Assembly (NCBI RefSeq): GCF_014646875.1
Contig: NZ_BMOC01000001.1
Coordinates: 62,001 to 126,000 of the forward strand
Length of the DNA stretch: 64,000 nucleotides
From: Halobellus salinus
GTDB lineage: Archaea > Halobacteriota > Halobacteria > Halobacteriales > Haloferacaceae
Direction: 5' to 3'
Below the pieces are notes generated by a model. The model had not been told where the DNA came from and searched no databases. It saw only the letters and a list, made by a program, of their open reading frames with translations. The translations under genes and the position numbers were made by a program. This document shows, piece by piece, positions 4,969 through 55,857 of the stretch (positions are counted from its first letter, which is position 1; the number at the start of each line of letters is the position of its first letter).

Positions 4969-5703
4969 CTAATCGGTTCGTGAGGTCGGATCGCGGTCCC
5001 TGACGGCGTCGAAGAGATCGCACAGCGCCTCACTCGAGCGGTCTAAGAGTTCCTCGCCGAGGTCGGCGCTCGACTCGCGGGGGTCGCCGACGACACCGTT
5101 GTCAGTGAACTCGTCGGAGTCGACCGCGAGGTTGACCCGGCCCTGCCACTCGCCCCACCCGTCGGCGCCGTCGGCGGCGGCGGCTTCGAGGCGATCGTCG
5201 TGGACCGTCTCGGGGTCGGTGTTGCGGAGCATCGAGGTTTCGAGCGGCCCGGCGTGGCCCATGTCCGAGGTGTGTTCGCCGACCTCGTCGAACCACGTGA
5301 ACGGGACGGCGTAGGCGTCGTCGTGGCGCACGATCCGCGCCGTGACCTCCTTCAGCGCCGCGATGTTGCCGCCGTGGCCGTTGACGACCACCACGCGGTC
5401 CCACCCGTGGGCGGCGAGGCTGCCGACCACGTCGCGGACGTAGTCGCGGAAGGTCGACTCCGAGGTCCACAGCGTGCCGGAGAACCGGCGGTGCTCTTCG
5501 GCGATCCCCACGGGAATCGCGGGCGCGACCACGACGGGGTCGGTGTACCGGTCGGCACCTGCCTCGGCCACCGCCTCGGCGGTGAGCACGTCGGTCCCGA
5601 GCGGGTCGTGGGGGCCGTGCTGTTCGGTGCTTCCGACCGGGAGGACCGCGAGCGTGGTGTCGGCCGCGTCGGCGTCGGTCCAGGATTCGCGCGCCAGGTG
5701 CAT
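4969..5703 (-). CDS. Creatininase-family amidohydrolase
   Basis: This 244-residue protein has the creatininase metal-binding pattern: GSTEQHGPHDPLGTD gives Glu27, His29 and Asp38, with the same spacing as the known family ligands, and His110 lies in NGHGGN. The family includes creatinine amidohydrolase and the archaeal formamide hydrolase ArfB of the flavin/deazaflavin pathway, so the substrate is not fixed. A nearby sarcosine-dehydrogenase-type gene would suit creatinine breakdown, but that link is inference. I chose the ATG at 5703 over a longer frame because a TATA box at 5727-5734 is centred 27 bases upstream and the family N-terminus starts here. The gene is divergent from the deacylase gene at 5828. 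Confidence 0.82.
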   Translation of the reverse strand: MHLARESWTDADAADTTLAVLPVGSTEQHGPHDPLGTDVLTAEAVAEAGADRYTDPVVVAPAIPVGIAEEHRRFSGTLWTSESTFRDYVRDVVGSLAAHGWDRVVVVNGHGGNIAALKEVTARIVRHDDAYAVPFTWFDEVGEHTSDMGHAGPLETSMLRNTDPETVHDDRLEAAAADGADGWGEWQGRVNLAVDSDEFTDNGVVGDPRESSADLGEELLDRSSEALCDLFDAVRDRDPTSRTD

Positions 5704-5726
5704 ACGGGGACGTGGCCCAGCGGCCC

Positions 5727-5734
5727 GATAAAGA
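5727..5734 (-). promoter_or_regulatory. TATA box, leaderless start of the creatininase-family gene
   Basis: The minus strand reads TCTTTATC, centred 27 bases before the ATG at 5703. This decides the start codon. Confidence 0.5.
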
Positions 5735-5793
5735 CCGCGGCGTGGCGGCCGGTGGGTGAGTCGCCCGGTCGCCGGCGCCGAACCGGCCGTCAC

Positions 5794-41596: not shown

Positions 41597-42496
41597 TCAC
41601 CCGGTCGGCGTCCGGTAGAGTAGATCGTACTGGTGGGCGACGTAGGTCAACTCGCCGCGGGCGAGTTGGTCGCGGCGGGTCGAGAGCCAGTCGTCGAACG
41701 CCTCGACCGTCCGGTCACCGGCCGGGACCGTCCCCTCGACGAATCCGAGCAGCCGGTCGAGAAAGTACCGCTCGTCGGCCGGGTACTCGCCGCCGCGCGG
41801 GCGGACGATCCAGTCCGAACTCCCGACCGCGAGCAGGTCGCCATCGCGGCTCCGGCACAGGTCGATGAGGTGCCGCCCGGCCCGAACGTCCCGCCCCGGG
41901 CGGCCGTCGATGGCGGCGTGGTACGCCGCCTCAACCGCGTCGTCGGCCGGGTGGTCGGGCTGGACGATGGTGCCGCCGTCGAACGTGATCGGGAGGTACG
42001 CCACCCCGCCGGGCCGGAGCGCGGACTCGACCGCCGACACCAGTTCCGAAGGGGAAACCAGGTCGGCGAACGCCTGAGCGATCACCGCGTCGACGCCCTC
42101 GGCGGCCGACAGCGCCTCAAGCGCGTCGCCGGTCTCGAAGCCGACCGCGAGGCCCTCAACCGTGAACTCCGGGTCGGGGTCGGTCGAGCGGCCGGTCCCG
42201 TCTCCGGCCGGCGGCGACCCCTCCGAGACCGTATACCCCGCGCGGTTGAGGGACTTCGGGCGGACGCGACGCGCGAACGCAACGATCCGGTCGTCGGCGT
42301 CGACGCCGACGTACCGGCCGCCGTCGACGCCCCACGACACCAGTCGGGGCACGGTGACGCCCGTCCCGCACCCGGTTTCGAGGATGGTGGGCGCCGGCGG
42401 GAGCGCGTCGAGAAACCGGTCGCGAACCCGCATCGACAGCGCCCGCTCGTCGACCGACCGCTTCGACTCCAGATACCGCGGCAGGGCGTGCTCCAT
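41597..42496 (-). CDS. Class I SAM-dependent methyltransferase in a pterin-like operon
   Basis: The 299-residue protein has motif I ILETGCGTGVTVPRL near residue 38, the acidic VGVDADDRIVAFARR that holds the SAM ribose, and DAVIAQAFADLVSP followed by RPGGVAYLPITFDGGTI. Its substrate cannot be read. It is the last gene of an operon: its ATG lies four bases after the stop of the pterin-synthase-fold gene, which in turn overlaps the MDR dehydrogenase. I recall similar dehydrogenase, PTPS-like and methyltransferase combinations in some bacteria; a shared unknown pathway is inferred. Confidence 0.8.
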   Translation of the reverse strand: MEHALPRYLESKRSVDERALSMRVRDRFLDALPPAPTILETGCGTGVTVPRLVSWGVDGGRYVGVDADDRIVAFARRVRPKSLNRAGYTVSEGSPPAGDGTGRSTDPDPEFTVEGLAVGFETGDALEALSAAEGVDAVIAQAFADLVSPSELVSAVESALRPGGVAYLPITFDGGTIVQPDHPADDAVEAAYHAAIDGRPGRDVRAGRHLIDLCRSRDGDLLAVGSSDWIVRPRGGEYPADERYFLDRLLGFVEGTVPAGDRTVEAFDDWLSTRRDQLARGELTYVAHQYDLLYRTPTG

Positions 42497-42500
42497 CCGG

Positions 42501-42908
42501 CTACCCGTCGAGCCGTCGCGTGTGGCTCGCCCACGACGTGTCGTCCTCCCAGATCCGGACGGTCAGGTGCGTCGGCGTCGGGTTCGACAGGGCGCCGGCG
42601 ACGCGGTCGCCGAACAGCCGGGAGAAGTGTTCGATGCTGGGGTTCAGTCCCTCGAACTCCGGGAGGTCGTTGAGGAGCGTGTCCCGGTAGCGATCCGCCA
42701 GGGAGTCGAGGATGTCGTCCACCGCGTCGATGTCGACGAGGTAGCCGTACTCGCCGAGTTCCGGGCCGGCGAACCGGAGTTCCACCCTGAAGCGGTGGCT
42801 GTTGACCTCGCCCTCCGGCCCGGGGTTCGGGACCGTGAGGTAGTGCTGTGCGATGAACGCTCTGGTGACGGTCAGTTCGTACGCCTGGTCGGTGTGGGGT
42901 CGTGTCAT
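42501..42908 (-). CDS. 6-pyruvoyltetrahydropterin synthase/QueD-family protein with altered metal site
   Basis: The 135-residue protein has the T-fold landmarks: FIAQHYL near the start with the first metal histidine, VNSHRFRVEL where HxH is expected, GYLVDIDAVDDILD, NPSIEHFSRLF and the terminal pterin-anchoring glutamate in IWEDDTSWAS. The usual HGH is NSH here, so one zinc ligand seems replaced by Asn, and the catalytic cysteine of PTPS is not evident. It may therefore act on a different substrate from QueD or PTPS. Its ATG overlaps the upstream dehydrogenase stop (ATGA), so translation is coupled. Confidence 0.82.
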   Translation of the reverse strand: MTRPHTDQAYELTVTRAFIAQHYLTVPNPGPEGEVNSHRFRVELRFAGPELGEYGYLVDIDAVDDILDSLADRYRDTLLNDLPEFEGLNPSIEHFSRLFGDRVAGALSNPTPTHLTVRIWEDDTSWASHTRRLDG

Positions 42909-43918
42909 GAGTTCGAATACGTGAGAAGTACTTGGAGCACGTTGTCGTCGCGGTCGTTGAGGAGGCGGTACGCCTCGGGGGCGTCGGTGAACGGCACGCG
43001 GTGGGTAACGAGGTCGTCGGCGTTGATCTCCCGCAGGCGTTCGACCGCGGTCTCGGCCCGCCGCGGTTTGTCCCACCGGCCGCGGGCCTCGGGCGCGAGT
43101 GTGCTCACCTGGCTCGACTCGATTGAGATCCGGTCGCGGTGGAACGTCGACCCCAGGTCGAGGGTCGCCGGCTTGTCGCCGTACCACGACCCGACGATCA
43201 CGCGGCCGTCGTAGCCCGCCGCGGCCACCGCGTCGTCGAGCGCCGTCGGGGTGCCGGAGAGTTCGTACACCAGATCAGCGCCGTCGTGGTCGGCGTCAAC
43301 GTCGAGGACGCCGTCGAGGCGTCCGGGGGCGACCGCCGCGTCCGCGCCCATCTCCCGGGCCCGCTTCCGGCGGCTCTCGATGGGTTCGACCGCGATGAGG
43401 CGACCGAGCGGGAACGACGACAGGACGCCGATCGTACACAACCCGACAACGCCCGCGCCGAAGACCACCACCCGTTCGCCGACCCGTGGCCGGCCGTCGA
43501 GCACCAGCGACGTCGCCGTCTCCACCGACGGGAACGTCGCCATCGCCTCGGGGGCGACCGACTCCGGCACGGTCAGGAGCCGCTCGGGTGGCAACGAAAA
43601 GTGGGTTTCGTGGGGAGTGAACCCAAACACCGTCCGGCCGACCCACTCGTCGTCGACTTCGGAGCCGGTGTCAACCACGTCGCCGACGGCCGCGTACCCG
43701 TAGCGGACCGGAAAGGAGAGGTCGCCGTCGAGGGTGTCTAATGTTTCGTCGGCCGGCAGGTCGGTCGGGGCGTCGCCGCGATAGATGAGGAGTTCAGTCC
43801 CGGTGCTGATCCCCGAGACGCGCGTCTCCACGAGCACCTCGTCGGCGGCCACCTCGACCGATGTGGGCCTGATTGCCGCCGACGACGGACCGGTGAAATA
43901 AAGCGAGTGTCGGTTCAT
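42905..43918 (-). CDS. Zinc-less MDR-superfamily dehydrogenase (BchC-like subgroup)
   Basis: The 337-residue protein is a medium-chain dehydrogenase with a GroES-like N-terminal half and a Rossmann C-terminal half (VVVFGAGVVGLCTIGVL). Where classical alcohol dehydrogenases have the catalytic zinc cysteine, it reads SGISTGTELLIYRG. The structural-zinc cysteine loop is absent. This ISTGTE form resembles bacteriochlorophyllide dehydrogenase BchC and its relatives. It probably acts without zinc on the substrate of the PTPS-like and methyltransferase proteins encoded next. The ATG at 43918 overlaps the stop of a 30-codon frame. Confidence 0.82.
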   Translation of the reverse strand: MNRHSLYFTGPSSAAIRPTSVEVAADEVLVETRVSGISTGTELLIYRGDAPTDLPADETLDTLDGDLSFPVRYGYAAVGDVVDTGSEVDDEWVGRTVFGFTPHETHFSLPPERLLTVPESVAPEAMATFPSVETATSLVLDGRPRVGERVVVFGAGVVGLCTIGVLSSFPLGRLIAVEPIESRRKRAREMGADAAVAPGRLDGVLDVDADHDGADLVYELSGTPTALDDAVAAAGYDGRVIVGSWYGDKPATLDLGSTFHRDRISIESSQVSTLAPEARGRWDKPRRAETAVERLREINADDLVTHRVPFTDAPEAYRLLNDRDDNVLQVLLTYSNS

Positions 43919-44007
43919 CGCGTGAGGAGGAGGCGGGCGCCTTCGGGACACAGATCCAGGCGCACGACACCGGGCGGTCGTTCGGTTTGAACGAGTTCGA
44001 CACACAT
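43915..44007 (-). CDS. 30-residue small ORF overlapping the MDR dehydrogenase start
   Basis: The ATG at 44007 lies about ten bases after a transcript start predicted from a TATA-like box (about 44039-44048). The frame ends with TGA at 43915-43917, overlapping the dehydrogenase ATG (43916-43918). The peptide begins MCVELVQTERPPG and contains a second cysteine. It may be a small protein or a leader peptide that couples translation to the operon. Confidence 0.42.
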   Translation of the reverse strand: MCVELVQTERPPGVVRLDLCPEGARLLLTR

Positions 44008-44182: not shown

Positions 44183-46603
44183 ATGCCACCTTCGACACGG
44201 GACCGGGCGCGGAAGGGGCCGTCAGACAGCCCTGTGAACGGCGGCTCGGACCCCGGCGCGGGGGGCCGAGAGGCAGCGACCGCGCGGTTCGAGGTGCCGG
44301 GGATGGACTGCGCTTCGTGTGCGAACAAAGTCGAGGCCGCTCTCGACCGGGTTGAAGGAGTCTCCGACCGCGACACCGCCCCCGCAACCGGTCGGGTGAC
44401 GGTCACCTACGACGCCGGGTCGGTGTCGGTGCCGGACCTCGTCGACGCGGTCGGCGGGGCGGGGTACGAGGTGACCGAAACGGGACCCGAGGCCGACGCC
44501 GAGGGTGGAGGCGGACACAGCGGGTCGGTCTGGCGGAGCCCCCGCGCGGTGAAGACGTGGATCGGCGCGGTCGTCCTCGGGGTCGGCCTGCTCTTGGAGT
44601 TCCTCGTCACCGGGTCGAACGTCCAGGTCGGCTCGGTGCTCGGGAGCGAACTCCACCTTGCTGACGCCCTCTTCGTCCTCGCTGTCGCGGTGAGCGGCCA
44701 GGCGATCCTCAGGGGCGGCTACTACTCCGCGCGCCACCTGCAACTCGACATCGACTTCCTCATGTCGGTTGCGATCCTCGGGGCGCTGCTCGCAAGCGTC
44801 GGGTTCGGCGAGGCGCTGTACTTCGAGGCCGCGACGCTCGCGGTGCTTTTCAGCCTCGCCGAACTCCTCGAGAGATATTCGATGGACCGCGCCCGCGACT
44901 CCCTCAGGGAGCTGATGGACCTCTCCCCGGAGGAGGCCACGGTGAAACGGGACGGAACAGAGGCGACCGTCCCGGTCGACGCCGTCTCGTCCGGCGACGT
45001 CGTGGTGGTGCGGCCGGGGGGGAAGATCCCCGCCGACGGGCAGGTGGTCGGCGGCGACAGCGCGGTGAACCAGTCGCCGATCACCGGCGAGAGCGTCCCG
45101 GTGGATAAGACCACCGGTGACGACGTCTACGCCGGCACGCTCGTTGAGAACGGCTACCTCGAGGTCCGGGTCACCGCGGCCGCCACCGACACCACGCTCT
45201 CGCGGATCGTCGGGCTGGTTGAGGACGCCCAGGCCGACACGACCGACCGCGAGCAGTTCGTCGAGCGGTTCTCGGCGTACTACACGCCCGCGGTCGTCGC
45301 CTTCGCGATCGTTGTCACCCTGTCGACCCCGTTCGTGTTCGGCGTGACGTGGCCGACCGCGCTGGTCTACGGGCTGACGCTGCTCGTGTTGGCGTGTCCG
45401 TGTGCGTTCGTCATCTCGACGCCCGTTTCGGTGGTCTCTGGGATCACAAGCGCCGCGAAGAACGGCGTGTTGATCAAGGGCGGCACACACCTCGAAGCGA
45501 TGGGCGCGGTCGACACGGTCGCGTTCGACAAGACGGGCACGCTCACCACCGGCGAGCTCGCCGTGACCGACGTGATCGGCGTGAACGGGAATTCGGAGGA
45601 GGACGTGCTCCGGTGCGCCCGCGGGCTCGAAGCCCGGAGCGAACACCCGGTGGGGGAGGCGATCGTCGCCGCCGCGGGCGACGCCGGGATCGCCGAGTCG
45701 GCGGCACCCGACGTTGACAGGTTCGAGAGCCTCACCGGGAAGGGCGTCCGCGGTCGGCTGGACGACACCCCCCACGTGGCGGGCAAGCCGGGGCTGTTCG
45801 AGGAGCTCGGGTTCGACCTCTCGCACGTCCACGCCGCGACCGATGGCGGGACGGTGACGACGACCTCCCGACAGCTCTGCGAGCGGAACGACTGCGTCGA
45901 CCTTCTGGCGGGGATCGTCCCCGAACTCCAGTCGGAGGGCAAGACGGTCGTCTTGGTCGGCAGAGCCGGGCACGGCCCGGCAGGCCGCCGGACGCAGTCC
46001 GGCGATACCGACACCGAGATCGAGGGGGTGATCGCGGTCGCCGACGAAGTCAGACCCGGTGCCGCCCGCGCGGTCGCCCGGCTGCGCGACGTCGGCGTTT
46101 CGCGGACGGTGATGCTGACCGGCGACAACGAGCGGACCGCCCGCGCGGTCGCCAGCGAGGTCGGGGTCGACGGGTTCCGCGCGGAACTCCTGCCCGACGA
46201 GAAGGTCGCGGCGATCGATGACCTCGTCAACGGGCGCGACGGCGGTGGCGGCGTCGCAATGGTCGGCGACGGCATCAACGACGCGCCGGCGCTGGCGACG
46301 GCGACGGTCGGTATCGCGATGGGTGCGGCGGGAACCGACACCGCGTTGGAGACCGCCGACATCGCGCTACTGGCCGACGACCTCTCGAAGCTCCCGTACC
46401 TCTACGAACTCGCGGGCGACGCCACCAGGGTGATTCGGCAGAACGTCTGGGCCAGCCTGGGCGTAAAAGCGCTGCTCGCGGTCGGAGTGCCGTTCGGCTA
46501 CGTCCCGATCTGGCTCGCGGTGCTCGCGGGCGATGCCGGGATGACCGTCGGCGTGACCGCAAACGCGATGCGGCTGTCGCGGTTGCGGCCCGAGAGGGAG
46601 TGA
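44183..46603 (+). CDS. P1B-type heavy-metal ATPase, Zn/Cd/Pb-exporter type
   Basis: The 806-residue protein has one N-terminal HMA domain (GMDCASC, Cys43 and Cys46), then membrane helices and the metal motif CPC (Cys405-Pro-Cys407) in LACPCAFVISTPVSVVSG. It also has the phosphorylation motif DKTGT with Asp449, the TGES actuator motif and GDGINDAPAL. The TPVSVVSGITSAAKNGVLIKGG stretch after CPC is typical of ZntA/CadA rather than copper pumps. It should export Zn2+, Cd2+ or Pb2+ across the membrane. The promoter contains a palindrome at 44160-44178 that may bind a metal sensor; no regulator gene is adjacent. Confidence 0.9.
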   Translation: MPPSTRDRARKGPSDSPVNGGSDPGAGGREAATARFEVPGMDCASCANKVEAALDRVEGVSDRDTAPATGRVTVTYDAGSVSVPDLVDAVGGAGYEVTETGPEADAEGGGGHSGSVWRSPRAVKTWIGAVVLGVGLLLEFLVTGSNVQVGSVLGSELHLADALFVLAVAVSGQAILRGGYYSARHLQLDIDFLMSVAILGALLASVGFGEALYFEAATLAVLFSLAELLERYSMDRARDSLRELMDLSPEEATVKRDGTEATVPVDAVSSGDVVVVRPGGKIPADGQVVGGDSAVNQSPITGESVPVDKTTGDDVYAGTLVENGYLEVRVTAAATDTTLSRIVGLVEDAQADTTDREQFVERFSAYYTPAVVAFAIVVTLSTPFVFGVTWPTALVYGLTLLVLACPCAFVISTPVSVVSGITSAAKNGVLIKGGTHLEAMGAVDTVAFDKTGTLTTGELAVTDVIGVNGNSEEDVLRCARGLEARSEHPVGEAIVAAAGDAGIAESAAPDVDRFESLTGKGVRGRLDDTPHVAGKPGLFEELGFDLSHVHAATDGGTVTTTSRQLCERNDCVDLLAGIVPELQSEGKTVVLVGRAGHGPAGRRTQSGDTDTEIEGVIAVADEVRPGAARAVARLRDVGVSRTVMLTGDNERTARAVASEVGVDGFRAELLPDEKVAAIDDLVNGRDGGGGVAMVGDGINDAPALATATVGIAMGAAGTDTALETADIALLADDLSKLPYLYELAGDATRVIRQNVWASLGVKALLAVGVPFGYVPIWLAVLAGDAGMTVGVTANAMRLSRLRPERE

Positions 46604-46775
46604 CGACGAGGCGCTCCGGTCGGTAACGCCGCTCAACGACGCGATCAATCCCGCCGGCGACGACGTGTCGCCGTACACGGGTGGCGAGCGAGCCGGCACG
46701 CCCGCCAACATCGGGACCCTCGTTGTCCAGGAGTCGGCCACCCAGACCGCGACTGCCACCGTGAGGGCCGACCGG

Positions 46776-46789
46776 ACAAATATAATACC
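46776..46789 (+). promoter_or_regulatory. TATA box, leaderless start of cysE
   Basis: ACAAATATAATACC is centred about 27 bases before the ATG at 46810 and favours this over an upstream in-frame GTG at 46798. Confidence 0.5.
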
Positions 46790-46809
46790 GTCCTGGAGTG
46801 AATGGACGT

Positions 46810-47682
46810 ATGGAGTACCGATACGACGGTGACGCACACGAGCGGCTCTCTGCCGCCTACGAGGACGATTCCGAGCCGTTCCCGACCGGCGTGACGGCGT
46901 GCTTTCCGGACCGTAACCACCGTCGGGAGGAGGTCGAGCTACTACAGGAACTGCTGTTTCCCACCTGCTGGAACGCCCCCGAACTCGCCCGCGACGAACT
47001 CGCGGTGTTGGACCACCTCGATACGATCGGCGACCTGTTCAGGGCGGGTATCTGTCCGTACTCCGACGGCGAGACGCGTCCGCGCGAGACGGTGTCGGCG
47101 CTCCTCGACAGCCTGCCCCGGATCCGCCGCGTGCTGAAACGCGACGTCGAGGCGGCGTACAAGGGTGATCCCGCCGCGAAGACGTACATGGAGATCGTCC
47201 GATCGTATCCAGGGTTCCTGGCGATCACGGTCCAGCGGGTCGCCCACGTGCTCTACGACATCGGCGCCGAGGAGTACGCCCGCGAGTTGACCGAGTACGC
47301 CAAGACCCGGACCGGGATCGACATCCACCCGGGTGCGGAGATCGGCGAATACTTCTTTATCGATCACGGCACGGGCGTTGTCATCGGCGAGAGCGCGACC
47401 GTCGGGGAGTGGGTCCGGCTCTATCAGGACGTGACCCTGGGGGCGCTCCATTTCGAGGAGGAAGAGGGCGACGAACACGCGCTCAAGAAGGACTACAAAC
47501 GCCACCCCGACATCGGCGACCACGTCGTGATCGGTGCGGGCACGAAGGTCCTCGGGTCGATCACGGTGGGCGACCACGTCAGCATCGGCGCCAACTCCTG
47601 GATCACTGAGGACGTGCCGGACCACACCAAGGTGTATATCAAGGATCACCCGACCCAAGAGCGGAAGCGCTACCAGGGGTAG
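46810..47682 (+). CDS. cysE: Serine O-acetyltransferase
   Basis: The 290-residue protein has a helical N-terminal domain (EELLQELLFPTCW region through SYPGFLAITVQRVAHVLY) and a left-handed beta-helix with hexapeptide repeats: GIDIHPGAEIGEYFFIDHGTGVVIGESA, then IGDHVVIGAGTKVLGSITVGDHVSIGANS (described in parts). The HGTGVVIG segment is the CysE signature. It makes O-acetylserine from serine and acetyl-CoA, the first step of cysteine synthesis. An insertion with EEEEGDEHALKKDYKRH before the last repeats is as in EpsC-type enzymes. The leaderless start is fixed by the TATA box. Confidence 0.92.
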   Translation: MEYRYDGDAHERLSAAYEDDSEPFPTGVTACFPDRNHRREEVELLQELLFPTCWNAPELARDELAVLDHLDTIGDLFRAGICPYSDGETRPRETVSALLDSLPRIRRVLKRDVEAAYKGDPAAKTYMEIVRSYPGFLAITVQRVAHVLYDIGAEEYARELTEYAKTRTGIDIHPGAEIGEYFFIDHGTGVVIGESATVGEWVRLYQDVTLGALHFEEEEGDEHALKKDYKRHPDIGDHVVIGAGTKVLGSITVGDHVSIGANSWITEDVPDHTKVYIKDHPTQERKRYQG

Positions 47683-47744
47683 TCAGGGTCGCCCCCGACA
47701 CCGCGGACGAAAAACCGAAGCCACTCGCCCGCATCGGGACACCT

Positions 47745-48116
47745 ATGTCAAACGGTTCGACGCCCGTTCGCGACGTGATGTCGACGCCGCTCGTGACCAT
47801 CACCCCGGACGCGAGTGTCGCTGAGGCCGCGAGCCTGATGCGTGATGAGGGCATCAACGCGCTCCTGGTCCCGACGACCGAGGTCGGTATCGTGACCAGC
47901 ACTGACGTGATCGACACCGTCGCACAGGGGGTAGATCCCGCGGATACCCCCGTCTCGGCGGTGATGACAGACGCCGTCGAGACCGTGCCGCCGGGGTTGC
48001 GGCTCACCGAGGCGGCTGCGATGATGGAGAACTTCGGCATCAGCCACCTCCCGGTTGTCGACGACGACTTCGTCGGCATGGTCTCCTCGACGGATATCAC
48101 CGCGGAGATCTCGTAG
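47745..48116 (+). CDS. Two-CBS-domain protein
   Basis: The 123-residue protein consists of two CBS repeats: VRDVMSTPLVTITPDASVAEAASLMRDEGINALLV and VSAVMTDAVETVPPGLRLTEAAAMMENFGISHLPVVDDDFVGMVSSTDI (cited in parts). Such stand-alone CBS pairs bind adenine nucleotides and regulate partner proteins. No partner is evident from neighbours. An ACGAAAAACC at 47708-47717 is a weak promoter candidate. Confidence 0.88.
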   Translation: MSNGSTPVRDVMSTPLVTITPDASVAEAASLMRDEGINALLVPTTEVGIVTSTDVIDTVAQGVDPADTPVSAVMTDAVETVPPGLRLTEAAAMMENFGISHLPVVDDDFVGMVSSTDITAEIS

Positions 48117-48200
48117 GCGGCGCCGAGACCGGGTCGGTCCGCGGTGCGGGTCGCTGTCGCCGACCACACGATTCAAGCGGGCCGGCGGCGTGACACGGGT

Positions 48201-48938
48201 ATGGACATCGTCGGCGCGCTCGGAGCCGCCACGGGGACGACCTGTGTTGTCGGCGCTGGGGGCAAAAAAACCACGATGGCGGCGCTCGGCGGACGGTTGG
48301 ACCGTGCGGTCGTCACCGCGACCGTCCGGATCCCCATCTTCGACGAGTGGGCGGGACGGGTCGTGATCACCGAGGACCCCGTCGGGACCGTCGAGGCCGC
48401 ACTCGACCGGTCCGACCCCGACGAGTGGCCGCTCGGGGTCGTGCCCGAGCAGGAACGCGAGGACCGGTACCGCGGGTACGACCCCGACACCATCGACCGC
48501 GTCGCCGACTTCGACGTGCCGATGCTGGTGAAGGCCGACGGCGCCCGGATGCGGCGGTTCAAAGCGCCCGACGACCACGAACCACGGCTCCCCGAAACGG
48601 CCGACACGGTGGTTGCAATCGCGAGCGCTCACGTCGTCGGCGAACCGCTCTCGGAGGGGTTGGTCCACCGGGTCCCGGAGGTGAACCGGATCACCGGGCT
48701 GGAACCGGGCGAGGAGATCACGGCCGCGGCCGTGGCGGACGTGTTCGCGAGCGACCGCGGCGGCCGGAAGGACGTGCCGAACGGCGCGACGTACGTTCCA
48801 CTACTGAACATGGTCGACGACTCCGACCTCGAAGCGAGCGCGCGCGAGGTCGCCAGGGAGATCCACGACCGGGTCAACGTGCCGCGGGTCGTGCTCGCGG
48901 AGATGCGCGCCGCGGATCCCGTCGTCGACGTGGTGTGA
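48201..48938 (+). CDS. yqeC: YqeC-family protein, molybdenum hydroxylase maturation
   Basis: The 245-residue protein has the P-loop-like start VVGAGGKKTTMAALGGRL, then VVTATVRIPIFDEW, VLVKADGARMRRFKAPDDHEP and VVAIASAHVVGEPL ... VHRVPEVNRITGL. These match the YqeC family linked to selenium-dependent molybdenum hydroxylases. The precise reaction is unknown. The next gene, mobA, is convergent on the other strand and modifies molybdopterin, so the context fits cofactor maturation. The ATG at 48201 is preferred over an in-frame codon at 48144, since the family begins just here. Confidence 0.82.
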   Translation: MDIVGALGAATGTTCVVGAGGKKTTMAALGGRLDRAVVTATVRIPIFDEWAGRVVITEDPVGTVEAALDRSDPDEWPLGVVPEQEREDRYRGYDPDTIDRVADFDVPMLVKADGARMRRFKAPDDHEPRLPETADTVVAIASAHVVGEPLSEGLVHRVPEVNRITGLEPGEEITAAAVADVFASDRGGRKDVPNGATYVPLLNMVDDSDLEASAREVAREIHDRVNVPRVVLAEMRAADPVVDVV

Positions 48939-48967
48939 CCGGGGCGCCGGTGGCCGGTCGGACCCGC

Positions 48968-49582
48968 CTACGCCTCCCGGAATCGGTCGTTCGCCGCCGC
49001 GAACTCCTCGCGGGTGTTGATATTGTCGAAGGTGTCGGCGGCCGCGACGCGGTCGACTTCGTCGCCGTCGATCACGACTTCGTCGAGGTCTGCGAGCGGC
49101 GCGACGATCCGGTGTGCGTCGCGGTCGAGCGCCCGCCGGCACGCCGCCGCCATCGCGTCGGTCCGGTAGACCGCTTGTGTGGTCTGGTACCACTCGTCGG
49201 GGCGCGGCACCGCGGCGTCGCGGCCGGCGGCCCGCTCGAACAGGAACTCCACGAACGCGGGGTCGACGAACGGCATATCGCAGGCGACCACGAACGTGTA
49301 CGCCGCGGAAACCGCTTCCAACCCGCGGGCGATCCCCGCCATCGGCCCCTCGTCTGGGTCTCTGTCGACCGCGAACGCCGGGTCGAAACCGCTCCCACCC
49401 AGGGCGTCGCGGATGACGTCGACCTGATCGGCGCGGCAGTTGATAACCACTTCGTCGACGGCGCCTGCAACCCTGTCGACCACCCGGCGGATCATCGGGG
49501 TCCCCGCGAGCTCGGCGACCGCCTTGTCGGCGTCGCCGAACCGCGTCGAGCGACCGCCCGCGAGTACGAGGCTTGCGCGCAT
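48968..49582 (-). CDS. mobA: Molybdenum cofactor guanylyltransferase-like NTP transferase
   Basis: The 204-residue protein has the nucleotidyltransferase signature SLVLAGGRSTRFGDADKAVAEL, the metal-binding DMPFVDP and the central PMAGIARGLEAV. It transfers GMP (or possibly CMP) from NTP to molybdopterin in the cytoplasm. The LAGGxSTRFG-DKA form is closer to MobA than to the cytidylyltransferase MocA, but with yqeC next door a cytidylyltransferase role for a hydroxylase is not excluded. The ATG at 49582 is divergent from the gene at 49698. Confidence 0.85.
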   Translation of the reverse strand: MRASLVLAGGRSTRFGDADKAVAELAGTPMIRRVVDRVAGAVDEVVINCRADQVDVIRDALGGSGFDPAFAVDRDPDEGPMAGIARGLEAVSAAYTFVVACDMPFVDPAFVEFLFERAAGRDAAVPRPDEWYQTTQAVYRTDAMAAACRRALDRDAHRIVAPLADLDEVVIDGDEVDRVAAADTFDNINTREEFAAANDRFREA

Positions 49583-49664
49583 ACCCGAACTTCCCGACCG
49601 TGGCGCAAGAAAGTGACGAGTGACGGGTCGCGGTGGCGGCCGCGGGTCGGCGCCGACACCCGAG

Positions 49665-49674
49665 TTCATATATC
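49665..49674 (+). promoter_or_regulatory. TATA box, leaderless start of the gene at 49698
   Basis: TTCATATATC is centred 27-28 bases before the ATG at 49698 and rules out the in-frame codon at 49620. Confidence 0.5.
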
Positions 49675-49697
49675 CGCGCGGAGACTCCCTTCCGACG

Positions 49698-50285
49698 ATG
49701 CGGGAGGACGAACTGGCGACGGCGGTGGTCGACCATTTCGAGGCTACGTTCGACGACCCCGAAATCCGGCTGGAGGAGCCGTACAACCACTACGGCACCC
49801 GGGGCGTTGTCGACGTCTACGCCCGCACTGCGCCGCCGGAACGGGTGAGTTACCTCGCGGAGTTGAAGGCCGATCCCGCCGTCCGGATGGCGTCGGGAGC
49901 CAACGAGATCCTCCGGCAGTACCGACGGGCCGAACGGTACTTCTTCCGGGATGACGCCCACGACCTCCGAACCCGGCTGGGTCGTGACGGTCCCGGGCTT
50001 CGTTTGCTTTTGCTTTTTGCGCCGACAGTCGGGTGTGTCGAACACGTGCTTGAGCACCGGTCGCTCTACGCCTCAGTTGCCCCCGAACTCTCGGTCGATG
50101 GGGTCTCCGCCGCCCGGACGGTGGCGTTTCTAGTAAACCTCGATAACGCGTCTCACGGCGGGCTCGGCTTCTGCTCGGTCAACGGTGACGTCGACGTGCA
50201 GTCGGCCGCGTTCCGCGAGGCCGTCCCCGAGGGGTCGCGGCTGGCGGCGGCGATCGACGAGGCCGACGTAGACGCCGACGCCTGA
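49698..50285 (+). CDS. Unknown protein with PD-(D/E)XK nuclease-like core
   Basis: I do not recognise a named family for this 195-residue protein. Residues 34-60 read GTRGVVDVYA ... YLAELKAD, giving Asp39 and Glu55-x-Lys57 on adjacent strands, the classic PD-(D/E)XK arrangement. A following helix QYRRAERYFF has the conserved Q-R flavour of that fold. The middle strand LRLLLLFAP and the rest are compatible with a small single-domain nuclease or a nuclease-derived binding protein. It is not next to a methyltransferase or helicase, so restriction or repair roles cannot be assigned. Start set by the TATA box. Confidence 0.6.
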   Translation: MREDELATAVVDHFEATFDDPEIRLEEPYNHYGTRGVVDVYARTAPPERVSYLAELKADPAVRMASGANEILRQYRRAERYFFRDDAHDLRTRLGRDGPGLRLLLLFAPTVGCVEHVLEHRSLYASVAPELSVDGVSAARTVAFLVNLDNASHGGLGFCSVNGDVDVQSAAFREAVPEGSRLAAAIDEADVDADA

Positions 50286-50300
50286 CCCGTGTTCGGGACG

Positions 50301-51515
50301 CTACCACGCGTTGTCGAGGACCGACTCGATCCCGTCGATGCTCGGGTCGATCCCGTCGGGCGCGACACCGAGCAGGTCGTCGGCGCGGATCGCTCGGGCG
50401 ATCGACGGGAGATCCGCCCGCTCGACGCCATTGAGGTCGCGGAGCCGGGCGGGGAGCTCGAGGTCGTCACGGACGCCCGCGACGGCGTCGATGGTGGCCT
50501 CAGCGGGATCCGCGTCGGCGCCTGCAACGCCGAGCGCCGACGCCAACAGGTCCCGACGGCCGTCGACCCGGTCGAAGACGTACCGGAGCACGTGGGGGGC
50601 GACGATCCCGTGGATGGTGCCCTGGTGGACGCCGGAGCCGTGGGAGAAGCCGTGGCCGAACGCGTGAATGATCGACGCGCGGTACCCCTCCGTGCCGGCG
50701 AGGCCGTACTGGACGGCCACGACCCCCGCGAGCACGTCGGCCAGTCGGTCGCCGTCCATCGGATCGTCGAGAAGGGTCCCGAGTCCTGACCGGAGCAATC
50801 GGAGGCCGCGGGCGGCCGTGCCATCGGTGATCGGGGTCGAAAGCGGGGAGTACAGCATTTCGACGCCCTTGTCGAAGCCGTTCATCGCCGACGCCGCGAG
50901 GACGGGGGTCGGGGTGGTCCGGTAGCGGTCGGCGTCGTAGAACAGCGCCGTCGGCATCAGCCGCGGGTCGCGGACGCCGCCGCTCGGAGGGGTTCGGTTC
51001 CCGGTGACCTCGCGGTCGAGGGTGAGCGTGATCCCTGCCAGATCCGAGAGGTCCGCACCCGCGAGCGTTGTCGGGACGGCGAGCATCGGGAGGGGGTCGG
51101 CGTCGTCCGCAACCGAGAGGTGGCCCGTTTCGACCGCCTCCTCGGCGACCTGTGCGGCGGCGTCGCCGTGCGTCGAGAGGGCACACAGTACTTTCGCGGT
51201 GTCGAGCGTGCTGCCGCCGCCGACCGTGACGACCGCGTCGGCGTCGTGTGCCCGTGCCGCCCGGAGCCCCGCGAGCGCGGTGCCGAGCGTCTTGTCGGGG
51301 GTCGTCTCCGGGAACTCCCCGACGAGTCGGTCACCGACACCGGCCCGGATCGGGTCGACGACCGCAGGGGTCGTACCGACGGTCCGCCCCGCCACGAGCA
51401 GCGCCCGGTCGAGCCCGCGGCTGCCGAGTTCCGCGCCCAGTTCGTCGACACACCCGGTGCCGACCCGGATCGTGCCCGGGCGATAGTCAAACCTGAACCC
51501 GTCAGTCGCGTGCAT
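50301..51515 (-). CDS. Iron-containing alcohol dehydrogenase
   Basis: The 404-residue protein has VVTVGGGSTLDTAKVL, VPTTLAGADLSD and the metal-ligand region FDKGVEM with IIHAFGHGFSHGSGVHQGTIHGIVAPH, which supplies the histidines. It is an NAD(P)-dependent alcohol or glycerol-type dehydrogenase of the Fe-ADH family, distant from the one at 31316-32515. The loop with LAGADLS in place of SGTGSE suggests a different substrate. The ATG at 51515 is preferred, since upstream codons are arginine-rich and unlike the family. No operon partner on this strand is obvious; it lies after the fragment at 51548. Confidence 0.82.
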   Translation of the reverse strand: MHATDGFRFDYRPGTIRVGTGCVDELGAELGSRGLDRALLVAGRTVGTTPAVVDPIRAGVGDRLVGEFPETTPDKTLGTALAGLRAARAHDADAVVTVGGGSTLDTAKVLCALSTHGDAAAQVAEEAVETGHLSVADDADPLPMLAVPTTLAGADLSDLAGITLTLDREVTGNRTPPSGGVRDPRLMPTALFYDADRYRTTPTPVLAASAMNGFDKGVEMLYSPLSTPITDGTAARGLRLLRSGLGTLLDDPMDGDRLADVLAGVVAVQYGLAGTEGYRASIIHAFGHGFSHGSGVHQGTIHGIVAPHVLRYVFDRVDGRRDLLASALGVAGADADPAEATIDAVAGVRDDLELPARLRDLNGVERADLPSIARAIRADDLLGVAPDGIDPSIDGIESVLDNAW

Positions 51516-51728: not shown

Positions 51729-52607
51729 TTACATATCCCCCGTCCGGTACACCCCGGCGACGACGAGGGAGTCACGAACGAACACCGCAAGCGACGCCGT
51801 AAGCACCACCGCAGCCAGCGGTGTGACGATCGAGAGCGGCGCGATCGGCATCAGCGCGAATGTGATGAACGCCATCTGTGTCCCCGCAAGCGGCCGCCGG
51901 AGGAGACTGGGCGGTAGATCGAACACCGGCTTTCCCTGCCGACGGCGATTCCAACACCCGAGTTTGAACAGGTAGCGCGCCACCGACAGCGACAGATACC
52001 AGACCGGAAGTTGGTCCCAGAGCACCCCCACCACCGGTGCCACGAAGAATCCGGTGGTGTCGATTGCCATGTCCAGTTTCGCGCCGAGGAGCGTGGTGCG
52101 CTCGGTCCGGCGCGCGAGGAACCCGTCCACGGAGTCCAGCCCACAGGCCGCCCCGTAGAGCACCGCCGGGAGCCACGCGATCTCGGGGCGGGGTGTGAGC
52201 GTCCCGAACCCCACGACCGCGGCCACCAACGCCCCTCGCCCCAGAGTGATGAGGTTCGGGATCCCCAACGACCGGTGGACCGGGACCGGCGTATCCCTTC
52301 CGTCCGGCCGGTTGGCGTCCAGGTGGCGGTAGGCGAACCACAGTTGGAACGCCGACACCGCCGCAACGGGAGTGAGCCACCGCACCGACGCGAACCCGGT
52401 GGCGATCCAGATCGCGTCCGCGAAGTCGACGATCCCCCGCGCCGAGAGCCGGATCAGGTCGGCCAAAACCTCAAGCAGAACAGCACCCTGGCCGTCGAGC
52501 GTCAGCGCCACGAGCCACGCGCCGCCGACCACGAGAAACGCCATCGCGGCCGCGACCGCCGCCCACTCCCGCCGGAGTGTCGTCGGAACTGCCGTGGTGT
52601 CGGTCAT
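51729..52607 (-). CDS. CDP-alcohol phosphatidyltransferase family protein
   Basis: The 292-residue membrane protein has the full CDP-alcohol phosphotransferase motif: Asp158, Asp161-Gly162, Ala165-Arg166, Gly175, Asp179 and Asp183 in GLDSVDGFLARR...GAKLDMAID. About seven hydrophobic segments surround it, including two before the motif that are extra to the minimal fold. It transfers a phosphoryl-alcohol from a CDP-activated lipid or small alcohol at the membrane. Its ATG overlaps the stop of the Gfo/Idh-AKR fusion gene (ATGA), so both are translated together, suggesting the fusion makes or modifies the polar alcohol. Confidence 0.88.
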   Translation of the reverse strand: MTDTTAVPTTLRREWAAVAAAMAFLVVGGAWLVALTLDGQGAVLLEVLADLIRLSARGIVDFADAIWIATGFASVRWLTPVAAVSAFQLWFAYRHLDANRPDGRDTPVPVHRSLGIPNLITLGRGALVAAVVGFGTLTPRPEIAWLPAVLYGAACGLDSVDGFLARRTERTTLLGAKLDMAIDTTGFFVAPVVGVLWDQLPVWYLSLSVARYLFKLGCWNRRRQGKPVFDLPPSLLRRPLAGTQMAFITFALMPIAPLSIVTPLAAVVLTASLAVFVRDSLVVAGVYRTGDM

Positions 52608-54613
52608 CGGTCGAACTCCGGGTCCGCGAGGTCTGCGAGCCGGTCGCGGTCGGCGTCGGTCAGCCGGAGCCGCGCGGCCGCGAGGTTCGCGGCGATGTGG
52701 TCGGGGTCGTCGCTTGCGGGAATCGGAACGACCCCCCGGTCGACGTGGAACGCGACCGCGACCGCCGCGGGCGTCGTCCCGTGTTCGGCGGCGATCTCAG
52801 CCAGAACCGGTTCCGCAAGCAGCCCCGGCGCCGACAGTGGGGAGTGAGCGAGCACTCGGATCCCCGCGGCGTGACACGCCTCGATCAGGTCGGTTCTGGG
52901 GCGGTAGGGGTGGGATTCGACCTGCACAATCGCGGGCGGCACGCGGGCGGCGTCGAGGATCGTCTCCAGTTGGTCGGAAGAGACGTTACAGACGCCGATC
53001 GTCCGAGCGAGCCCCTGGTCGTGGACGCGTTCGAGTCGCCGCCACGTGTCGACAATGGACGCGTCGACGGTTTCGGGGTCGCCGTCGCCGTCGGTCGGGA
53101 ACGTCACCGCCTCCTGGTCGTCGGGCGGGAGCTCCGCGAGCTCCGACAGCGGCCCCTGGTAGGCCCACGCGTCGGGCCAATGCAGGAGGTACGCGTCGAG
53201 GGCGCCGACCCCGAGTTCGTCGAGGCTGCCGCGGCAGGCTTCTGCAACGTGTTCGTGGTTGGTGTTCCAGAGTTTGCTGACCAGGAACACCCCCTCGCGG
53301 TCGGGTGACCCGGGCGCGTCGAACAGGTCGCCGATCCGCGCCTCGTTGCCGTACAGTTCCGCCGAATCGAACAGCCGATACCCCGCATCGACCGCGGTTG
53401 CAATGGAGTCGATCCGGTCGACGTACTCGTCGTCCCGGTACCGCGAGCACCCGAAGCCGACGGGGGGAAGCCGGAGCGCGGCGGGGCGAGCGGGGGCGTC
53501 GGCCGCTCGGTCCGTCTCCGGGGGCCGGATACGCTCCGACGGCGGTGTCGGCCGGACCCGCGGCGACCGAGTGTCAGGAGTCCGAGGCTCCAGGTCGCCC
53601 GGGGGGACGTCGACCGCTCCGCCGGCGTCGGCCGCGCGCTCGACGGCGTTACACACGGCGACAACGTGGGCCGCGCGCTCGGCGCTGTCGGTCGGGCGGT
53701 CCCCACGCCCGATAGCGGTGGCCACCCGTTCGGGGCCTGAGAGGTACGGCCGGGCCCGGCGCGGCGCCGGGTGGGGGGCGGCGACGTACGGCCGGCCCGC
53801 GCCGCCGACGCGCACCGTCTCGGGGTCGGCGGCGAGTGCGCCCGCGTCCGCAAGGTAGATCGACCCGTCGTCGCCGTGGAGTTCGAGGCTGGTGAACTCG
53901 CGGCTCCGGTGCGGGGCGTAGAGGCTCGCAGTGAGTCGGATCGCGGGGCCGGCAGCGAACTGGAGGGTCGCCTCAACGTGAGCAGGGCGGTCGGGCCGTC
54001 GTGACTCCCGGTCGGGCCAGACATCGACGGCGTCGGCGGTCCGCACGCGGTCGACGGGGCCGAACCACGCGGCCAGAAGCGACAGCGGGTAGACCGCGCC
54101 GTCGTAGAGCGGCCCGACCGAGAGGAACGAATCGGGGCTGTCGTGCCACGCCGTGACCCGACCGACGTGGGCGTGGACGTACCCCAACTGGATCGGGCCG
54201 AACCGACCGTCCGAGAGGAGCGAGGCGGCGTGACGCTGGGCGTCACACCGGTGGTTGATCGGCGCACACCCCAGCGCGACCCCGCGGTCATCGGCGGTGG
54301 CGACGAGGTCGGCCGCCCGGTCGGCGTCGAGCGCGAGCGGCTTCTCGCTGAAGACGTGCCGGTCGGCGCGGAGACATGTTTCGGTGACGTCGGCGTGGGC
54401 GGCGTGGCTGGTGAGGTTCACGACGAGTGGGAGCGACTCGGCGGCCAGAAGCGAGTCGAGGTCGGTGTACGCCGCGGCGCCGTGTGCCCCCGCCAGCGAC
54501 TCGGCACGCGCTGCGTCGAGGTCACAGACGGCGGCGAGGTTGAGCGGGGAGTCGCCGAGGGCGGTGGCGTACTGCTCCGCCACCGCGCCCGCGCCGACGA
54601 ACGCACACTTCAT
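52604..54613 (-). CDS. Fusion of Gfo/Idh/MocA oxidoreductase and aldo/keto reductase
   Basis: The 669-residue protein joins two complete enzymes. Residues about 1-330 are Gfo/Idh/MocA: KCAFVGAGAVAEQYA at the start, EKPLALDADRAADLV near 100 and a C-terminal beta-sheet domain. After a proline/arginine-rich linker (about 335-380) comes an aldo/keto reductase barrel: VGFGCSRYRDDEYV, RLFDSAELYGNE with catalytic Asp and Tyr, FLVSKLWNTNH with the lysine, and LLHWPDAW with the histidine. Both halves usually act on sugars or polyols with NAD(P)H. The fusion should perform two successive redox steps on one substrate. It is coupled by ATGA overlap to the phosphatidyltransferase. Start at 54613 fits a TATA-like GCTTTTGAG at 54637-54645. 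Confidence 0.88.
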   Translation of the reverse strand: MKCAFVGAGAVAEQYATALGDSPLNLAAVCDLDAARAESLAGAHGAAAYTDLDSLLAAESLPLVVNLTSHAAHADVTETCLRADRHVFSEKPLALDADRAADLVATADDRGVALGCAPINHRCDAQRHAASLLSDGRFGPIQLGYVHAHVGRVTAWHDSPDSFLSVGPLYDGAVYPLSLLAAWFGPVDRVRTADAVDVWPDRESRRPDRPAHVEATLQFAAGPAIRLTASLYAPHRSREFTSLELHGDDGSIYLADAGALAADPETVRVGGAGRPYVAAPHPAPRRARPYLSGPERVATAIGRGDRPTDSAERAAHVVAVCNAVERAADAGGAVDVPPGDLEPRTPDTRSPRVRPTPPSERIRPPETDRAADAPARPAALRLPPVGFGCSRYRDDEYVDRIDSIATAVDAGYRLFDSAELYGNEARIGDLFDAPGSPDREGVFLVSKLWNTNHEHVAEACRGSLDELGVGALDAYLLHWPDAWAYQGPLSELAELPPDDQEAVTFPTDGDGDPETVDASIVDTWRRLERVHDQGLARTIGVCNVSSDQLETILDAARVPPAIVQVESHPYRPRTDLIEACHAAGIRVLAHSPLSAPGLLAEPVLAEIAAEHGTTPAAVAVAFHVDRGVVPIPASDDPDHIAANLAAARLRLTDADRDRLADLADPEFDR

Positions 54614-54710
54614 AAGCGTGTAGTCGGACCCGACGCTCAAAAGCACGCGGGCCGCGTTCCGCCGACGTCAACGCCGACGCCAACATTGACGAGGTGGCCG
54701 AAACCCCGAC

Positions 54711-54720
54711 GGTATATCCC
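54711..54720 (+). promoter_or_regulatory. TATA box, leaderless start of the GT4 glycosyltransferase gene
   Basis: GGTATATCCC is centred about 27 bases before the ATG at 54742. Confidence 0.5.
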
Positions 54721-54741
54721 GCCGCCGCCGGTAGAACGGGT

Positions 54742-55857
54742 ATGGCCCGGGTCGCGATCCTTCACAACACGCTTGACTTCCAAGGCGGCGCCGACGTGGT
54801 GTGTCTGTCGGCGTGTGCGGCACTCCAGGCCGAACACTCGGTCACCCTGTATACGATCTCGGAGAGCGATCCCGGCGACCTCGCGGCGCGGTTCGGGATC
54901 GACCTCGACACGGCGTCGCTCGACGTTCGGATGCCGACCGGCGCGGAACCCCTCGCGCGGATGCTGTCGGCGGGTGCCCCCGCGGTCGGCCCGCAGCTGG
55001 CGCTCCGGAGCGTCCTGCTCCGCCGGGCCGTCGGTAGGCAACTGGGCGCGTTCGACCTCGTGGTGAGCACCGCAAACGAGGTGTCGCTGCCGACCCCGTC
55101 GGTCCAGTACGTCCACTACCCGCAGTTCCGGACCCACCGACTCCCCGACGGCGACGGTGGGGGGCTGAACCGCGTGTGGAGTCGACTCGGAGCCCCCCGA
55201 TCCGACGACCTCGACGACGAGACGACGCTGCTCGCGAACTCGGCGTGGACCGCGCGCGTGACCGAGACCGTCTACGGGGTCCGGCCGTCGGTGCTTCACC
55301 CGCCGGTGGATCCGATCGCGGGGCGGAACGCGTGGGGCGAGCGCCGGGACGGGATCGTCGTCGTCGGGCGGCTCGCGCCCGACAAGCGGATCGGAGACGC
55401 CGTCCGGATCGTCGACGGGGTCAGGGCGCGCGGTCACGACCTCTCGCTTCAGGTTGTCGGCGCCGCGCCGCGGTCGTACCGCCGGTACGTCCGGCGTGTC
55501 GAGTCGATGGCCGACAAGCGCCCGTACGTGACAGTCGAGCAGAACGCCCCGCGGGCGCGGTTGGAGGAACTGTTGTGCACCCACAAATACGGGCTGAACT
55601 GCAAACCGCGGGAGCATTTCGGGATGTCGGTCGCGGAGTACGTCGCAAGCGGCATGGTTGCGTTCGCCCCCGATAGCGGCGGCCAGCGCGAGGTGCTCAA
55701 CGGCCGCGAAAACCGGCTGTTCGGATCGGTCGATGAGGCGATCGACCTGGTCGCGGCGGCCGCTGCGGCCGACGACCCGCCCGTGCTGCCACCGGACCGG
55801 TTCGGGAGCGAGCGGTTTCGGCGCGGGATCAGCGACGCTGTGGCTCGAGCGCTGTGA
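54742..55857 (+). CDS. GT4-family glycosyltransferase
   Basis: The 371-residue protein has the GT-B fold: an N-terminal ARVAILHNTLDFQGGADVV loop for acceptor binding, NSAWTARVTETVYG before the second domain, DGIVVVGRLAPDKRI and the C-terminal EHFGMSVAEYVASGMVAFAPDSGG. That last segment contains the conserved E-x7-E that holds the nucleotide sugar. The ALG11/capM-like N-terminus suggests a lipid-linked or glycolipid acceptor. It is divergent from the Gfo/Idh-AKR and phosphatidyltransferase operon, 128 bases away, and could use the same polar lipid. Leaderless start fixed by the TATA box. Confidence 0.88.
   Translation: MARVAILHNTLDFQGGADVVCLSACAALQAEHSVTLYTISESDPGDLAARFGIDLDTASLDVRMPTGAEPLARMLSAGAPAVGPQLALRSVLLRRAVGRQLGAFDLVVSTANEVSLPTPSVQYVHYPQFRTHRLPDGDGGGLNRVWSRLGAPRSDDLDDETTLLANSAWTARVTETVYGVRPSVLHPPVDPIAGRNAWGERRDGIVVVGRLAPDKRIGDAVRIVDGVRARGHDLSLQVVGAAPRSYRRYVRRVESMADKRPYVTVEQNAPRARLEELLCTHKYGLNCKPREHFGMSVAEYVASGMVAFAPDSGGQREVLNGRENRLFGSVDEAIDLVAAAAAADDPPVLPPDRFGSERFRRGISDAVARAL

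Follow-up and report, generated by a model that had tools for sequence, protein, structure and literature searches.

A zinc-less dehydrogenase, an altered PTPS-fold protein and a methyltransferase in Halobellus salinus as the middle of a conserved gene set with a proposed role in pteridine biosynthesis

What pathway is served by a group of genes in Halobellus salinus whose products belong to well-known enzyme families but have lost the residues of the textbook reactions? In the window, the whole stretch of 64,000 nucleotides analyzed here, three genes lie on the minus strand at positions 41597 to 43918, in the order dehydrogenase, PTPS-fold protein, methyltransferase. They encode a zinc-less dehydrogenase of the MDR superfamily (42905..43918; 337 aa), a PTPS-fold protein (42501..42908; 135 aa) and a class I SAM-dependent methyltransferase, or MT (41597..42496; 299 aa), with an intact motif I (ETGCGTG). 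The trio put forward in a preliminary description is real, as judged from the open reading frames and from the Pfam matches to ADH_zinc_N (PF00107, 3.6e-13), PTPS (PF01242, 4e-23) and Methyltransf_25 (7e-8), and its retention in both archaea and bacteria goes beyond chance. The dehydrogenase starts at 43918 (MNRHSLYFTGP, which fits the family N terminus MxxRxLYFTxP); the start given earlier, at 44007, places it about 30 codons too early. The frames had been described as overlapping, but only those of the dehydrogenase and the PTPS-fold protein overlap, by 4 nt (ATGA), whereas the PTPS-fold and methyltransferase genes are 4 nt apart. The overlap suggests translational coupling of the first two genes, and the fixed stoichiometry claimed earlier read too much into such a hint.

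The dehydrogenase had been noted for STGTE in place of the zinc cysteine. An alignment of 32 family members from archaea and bacteria confirmed this as a family-wide trait. In all of them, SxGTE (SxGSE in one) replaced the zinc-Cys motif, GYA, GYS, GYC or GYL stood in place of GHE, and the cysteines for structural zinc were gone. A zinc-dependent MDR alcohol dehydrogenase was rejected on account of these losses. The pattern SxGTE...YGY...PH was constant across the relatives, with S-A/G-I-S-x-G-T-E ... YGYAxVG ... PH as the family motif, and the invariant Gly columns remained. The ADH_zinc_N/Rossmann domain with its GxGxxG, kept in the window protein, places it in the MDR superfamily. Its best NCBIfam match was BchC, a bacteriochlorophyllide dehydrogenase, but the score of 73.4 bits was far under the cut-off of the equivalog TIGR01202 (291.25 bits), and this identity was rejected as well. 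The Rossmann domain is shared with threonine and polyol MDRs (Tdh, RspB and sorbitol dehydrogenase); in the window protein, however, the ligands that hold catalytic zinc in the polyol enzymes are missing. Among zinc-free MDRs, reduction of C=C or C=N is commoner than alcohol oxidation.

The active site of the PTPS-fold protein was compared with those of 81 aligned PTPS relatives. The catalytic-Cys position was occupied by an invariant Glu (E32 in the window protein), which bore out the earlier remark that no catalytic cysteine is evident. NSH in place of HxH was correctly described for the window protein (N36-S-H38 at the HGH position), but it is found in only 7 of the 81 relatives, the window protein among them; the family norm is HSH (74/81). 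At the position of the Asp-His dyad, the family mostly has Arg-Asp, which is R75-D76 in the window protein; the earlier description mentions neither this change nor the Glu. H22, H38, E121 and E32 were conserved in this ExxxHSH family, and E121 aligned with the Glu (ET/ES) of QueD-like paralogues, which we take to be the pterin anchor that holds the 2-amino-4-oxopyrimidine edge. Because the altered sites recur throughout the dehydrogenase and PTPS families, the alignments indicate retained family traits and not local decay. With the zinc ligands gone in one protein and both the Cys and the Asp-His dyad gone in the other, it would fit that neither carries out the textbook reaction, as had been suggested. 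The predicted structure of the PTPS-fold protein (AF2, pLDDT 92.4) had a PTPS fold; the closest structures were first SCO6650 of Streptomyces coelicolor, a PTPS-IV protein (PDB 3d7j; TM 0.81), and then QueD (TM about 0.73), and Plasmodium PTPS E37 structures were also matched.

One reading of this protein is a diverged QueD/archaeosine enzyme or a folate PTPS-III enzyme in a chance neighborhood. The PTPS fold is consistent with this, as is the fact that the altered protein is the single PTPS of the source genome (54 contigs, 99.26% complete). QueD (PTPS-I, 6-carboxytetrahydropterin synthase) shares with it the fold, H22, H38 and the substrate-anchoring Glu (E121). However, QueD and PTPS-I are defined by a CxxxHGH motif (PMC5041015), and the corresponding sequence is ExxxNSH in the window protein and ExxxHSH in its family. 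The window protein has no Cys, has Asn for the first His of HGH and R75-D76 for the catalytic Asp-His, lies among other neighbors and scored 34.1 bits against a cut-off of 89.25 bits for the QueD equivalog TIGR03367. PTPS-III (folate, e.g., Plasmodium) likewise has a Glu replacing the catalytic Cys, but within ExxHGH; in the window family, an extra residue separates the Glu from the His motif (HSH or NSH), and riboflavin-branch genes are nearby. Furthermore, most of the operon-bearing genomes examined had a separate canonical PTPS/QueD-like paralogue, and those read had HGH and Asp-His, with Cys in nearly all. Since such a paralogue coexists, the operon protein is not QueD. In the source genome, no full-length QueC was found, only partial matches of about 60 residues at 22 to 23 bits, and the neighborhood was far from random across 80 loci. 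We find a diverged QueD or PTPS-III hardly credible. Both the source genome and a Halobellus relative (G001) had the altered PTPS only, with no canonical QueD-like paralogue found; de novo preQ0/archaeosine synthesis seems to have been lost or replaced by salvage in these two genomes.

SCO6650 was the nearest solved structure not only by fold but also by profile, with a match of 4e-42 when PTPS-IV rows were in the profile and of 7e-6 with the window protein alone. Identity between PTPS-IV (a subfamily of COG0720) and the window protein was about 20 to 24%. In a tree, a branch with 95/92 support set the operon PTPS together with PTPS-IV against ten canonical PTPS/QueD-like proteins encoded in the same genomes, although long branches weaken the join. 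The same MDR, GT4 and MT neighbors were found for PTPS-IV in Streptomyces, Thiodictyon, Methylosinus and Neorhizobium, with GTP cyclohydrolase II (GCHII), RibD_C, creatininase or CDP-alcohol phosphotransferase genes nearby depending on the locus; one Streptomyces plasmid copy of PTPS-IV stands alone. A PTPS-IV neighborhood with GCHII and RibD_C has already been reported (PMC5445326), and it was present in the bacterial relatives, while haloarchaea had ArfA instead. The motifs differed: PTPS-IV has FGPAQ...HGA and YRN, whereas the window family has ExxxHSH (NSH) and RxD, with GPEG or GPEN in place of FGPAQ, which was confined to the Streptomyces/Proteobacteria branch. The window family represents a second branch of this subfamily, about which little is known, and belongs to an operon shared across domains. 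A literature search found no published function for PTPS-IV-like proteins, whose usual annotation is 6-carboxytetrahydropterin synthase (QueD), and searches on the cluster as a whole, on SCO6650/SCO6655 and on halopterins yielded nothing of use. Two further genes were seen at PTPS-IV loci: one without annotation, flanked by the methyltransferase and creatininase genes of a Streptomyces cluster (L087:12605-13645) and encoding an LPG_synthase_TM domain, and an MdoH-like membrane glycosyltransferase gene adjoining the operon in Methylosinus and Neorhizobium (L089:7079-8881 and L092:5098-7011).

PTPS-IV has been stated, as unpublished work, to act in F420 synthesis (PMC5041015), and the operon as a whole might serve this coenzyme. 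Haloarchaea have CofH-like genes, and the ribitylaminopyrimidine branch is shared. However, eight operon-bearing bacterial genomes of Salinibacter, Deltaproteobacteria and Chloroflexota (G011 and G013 to G019) lacked a real CofH, as matches, where there were any, did not exceed 37 bits. This contradicts F420 as a general purpose of the operon, and the FGPAQ motif of PTPS-IV is missing from the window protein. We consider a role in F420 synthesis very unlikely.

A neighborhood survey of the three families covered 80 loci in GTDB genomes. The dehydrogenase gene was present with the PTPS gene in 73 loci and a methyltransferase gene was present in 72, so the trio is kept together elsewhere. Seven loci had no dehydrogenase gene: in four of them the contig broke off less than 3 kb upstream of the PTPS gene, and the other three (L050, L054 and L079) had full flanks. 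In most loci, a GT4 glycosyltransferase gene was found between PTPS and MT (38/60 haloarchaeal and 17/20 bacterial loci). The MDR-PTPS-GT4-MT set was common to haloarchaea, Salinibacter, Deltaproteobacteria and Chloroflexota. In 30 short loci of the Caldilineaceae (Chloroflexota), the same order was seen, with MDR adjoining PTPS in all 30, GT4 in 29 and RibD_C in 26. Of 147 haloarchaeal relatives, 107 had a member of the PTPS family, as did every same-genus genome searched. GT4 was missing from the trio in the clade of the window, and MT was missing from several loci. The methyltransferase model matched generic class I methyltransferases only; therefore, its substrate cannot be read from the fold. 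This co-retention in archaea and bacteria, with riboflavin-branch genes nearby, fits the earlier idea of an uncharacterized cofactor or pterin-derived pathway. The GT4 partner, the early riboflavin-branch genes, the remainder of the cluster 8 to 12 kb away and the sister group PTPS-IV go beyond that description.

ArfA was found within 10 kb of the operon in 29 of 60 haloarchaeal loci; chance alone would give about 1.3% per locus. In H. elongans (L035), for instance, the operon genes lie beside arfA. Several genomes had two ArfA genes, one of them inside the operon. In a tree built without the sequences of L157, L160, L161 and L164, the operon-only ArfA proteins formed a divergent paralogue clade (support 100/99), distinct from ordinary riboflavin ArfA and found in lineages near that of the window (operons L009 to L026). 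In other lineages, the ordinary ArfA adjoins the operon. The bacterial loci had RibD_C (16/20) and GCHII (11/20), often fused to each other, and no deaminase domain was found in the Salinibacter GCHII-RibD_C fusion, the one fusion scanned. Some Chloroflexota genomes had no GCHII besides that of the operon, so the operon enzyme also serves riboflavin there. At a Streptomyces plasmid PTPS-IV locus, GCHII and a creatininase-family gene were also present. The window itself has a gene for a creatininase-family protein at 4969..5793 (minus strand), a family to which HVO_1235 presumably belongs. HVO_1235 is listed as a candidate for the deformylase ArfB (PMC8305020), and the link of the window gene to the pathway is putative. 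Near it, at 2003-4597, is a gene read from its sequence as encoding an FAD-dependent dehydrogenase/aminomethyltransferase-like protein of 864 aa. The riboflavin-branch enzymes encoded near the operons would together make 2,5-diamino-6-ribosyl/ribitylamino-pyrimidinone phosphates. Because ArfA, RibD_C or GCHII is found near the operon, the pathway probably starts from a diaminopyrimidine of the riboflavin branch and not from a GTP-cyclohydrolase-I pterin.

The remaining part of the haloarchaeal cluster spans positions 51729-55857 of the window. It consists of a gene for a fusion of a Gfo/Idh/MocA oxidoreductase with an aldo/keto reductase (Gfo-AKR; 52604..54616, minus strand), which in many relatives directly adjoins the trio; a CDP-alcohol phosphotransferase gene (51729..52607, minus strand), which shares 4 nt with the gene before it and whose product has an intact DxxDGxxAR...GxxxDxxxD motif; and a second GT4 glycosyltransferase gene (54694..55857, plus strand), divergent from the Gfo-AKR gene. 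An iron-containing alcohol dehydrogenase gene follows the phosphotransferase gene (50301..51512, minus strand); its membership is doubtful, with one weak match in one congener only. In Halorubrum, Halosimplex, Halocatena and others, the genes of this second half lie directly upstream of (ArfA-)MDR-PTPS-MT. In the window and in a congener with the same arrangement (L095), the halves are split by several kilobases of unrelated genes; those of the window (44183..50285), for a copper-type P-ATPase, serine acetyltransferase-like and MobA-like proteins and others, are outside the pathway. The second GT4 was present in 11 of 22 loci without the operon GT4 and in none of the 38 with it, an exclusion confounded by kinship; it may replace the operon GT4.

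The CDP-alcohol phosphotransferase gene was found in 26 of 60 haloarchaeal loci and also near PTPS-IV in Streptomyces and Thiodictyon. Together with the Streptomyces LPG_synthase_TM protein and the riboflavin-branch precursor genes, it is consistent with a product that keeps the ribityl chain, i.e., an 8-ribityl pteridine, a lumazine-like chromophore or a lipid-linked pyrimidine, with the dehydrogenase and the PTPS-fold protein reducing or cyclizing around the chain. However, the phosphotransferase may be part of a module of its own, and we hold a ribityl-retaining product to be possible but doubtful.

Our preferred reading, to which we assign a probability of roughly 0.6, is that the trio forms the middle of a conserved biosynthetic set that turns an early riboflavin-branch intermediate into a modified pteridine or a related bicyclic pyrimidine. 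From the observed gene content, order, conservation and loss of zinc and Cys chemistry, we infer every reaction that follows. GTP would be opened by ArfA in haloarchaea or GCHII in bacteria, with deformylation by a creatininase-family enzyme where needed. ArfC/RibD_C would then reduce the intermediate without deamination to 2,5-diamino-6-ribitylamino-pyrimidinone 5'-phosphate. The zinc-less dehydrogenase, a distant BchC/Tdh relative, might use NAD(P) to oxidize or reduce either the side chain or a ring derived from it. The PTPS-fold protein, with E121 and the zinc-type His kept and Glu32 in place of Cys, might catalyze a cyclization, isomerization or aldol-type step; since its sister PTPS-IV lacks even this Glu (HGA, YRN), it might instead bind rather than catalyze. 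GT4 would glycosylate and the MT would methylate the product, proposed to be a glycosylated, methylated pteridine, and the CDP-alcohol phosphotransferase may attach it through a phosphodiester, perhaps to a lipid. Against this pathway, the neighborhood leaves the order of reactions unfixed, and not every step is universal, as the absences of GT4 and MT show.

A more specific version of this pathway is a pterin route free of GTP cyclohydrolase I, which in haloarchaea would lead to a pterin carrying glycosyl and methyl groups, and in Caldilineaceae without FolE to folate. The dehydrogenase would oxidize the ribityl 2'-OH of 2,5-diamino-6-ribitylaminopyrimidinone phosphate, and the 5-amino group would close on the ketone to give 7,8-dihydroneopterin phosphate, so that a reductase and a dehydrogenase would take over what GTP cyclohydrolase I achieves by its Amadori step. 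Next, the Glu-type PTPS would cleave the side chain in the manner of PTPS-III, and the glycosyltransferase and methyltransferase would decorate the product. By our own reasoning this chemistry is self-consistent, and the neighborhood of RibD_C or ArfA with MDR and PTPS agrees with it. A catalytic Glu has a precedent in the Plasmodium PTPS E37 structures; however, oxidation of a polyol by a zinc-less MDR would be unusual. FolE was absent from 38 of 46 Caldilineaceae genomes; the operon PTPS was found in 32 of these 38 and in 4 of the 8 with FolE (Fisher p 0.055, a value that ignores kinship). The six remaining FolE-less genomes had no operon PTPS. One genome of the family (G015), the one covered by the FolE2 search, had neither FolE nor FolE2 and yet had a FolK-FolP fusion and the operon. 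In contrast, FolE2 was kept in all 12 haloarchaea tested and FolE in some operon bearers, so the route is not needed for folate there. Overall, we judge this specific version unlikely. If true, it would show how Chloroflexota without FolE might obtain folate by synthesis.

For the broader pathway from a riboflavin-branch intermediate to a modified pteridine, a four-gene core and its precursor genes are now defined and are open to experiment in haloarchaea that grow in culture. Should the product be a new pteridine, or one linked to lipid, it would be a widespread unknown metabolite.
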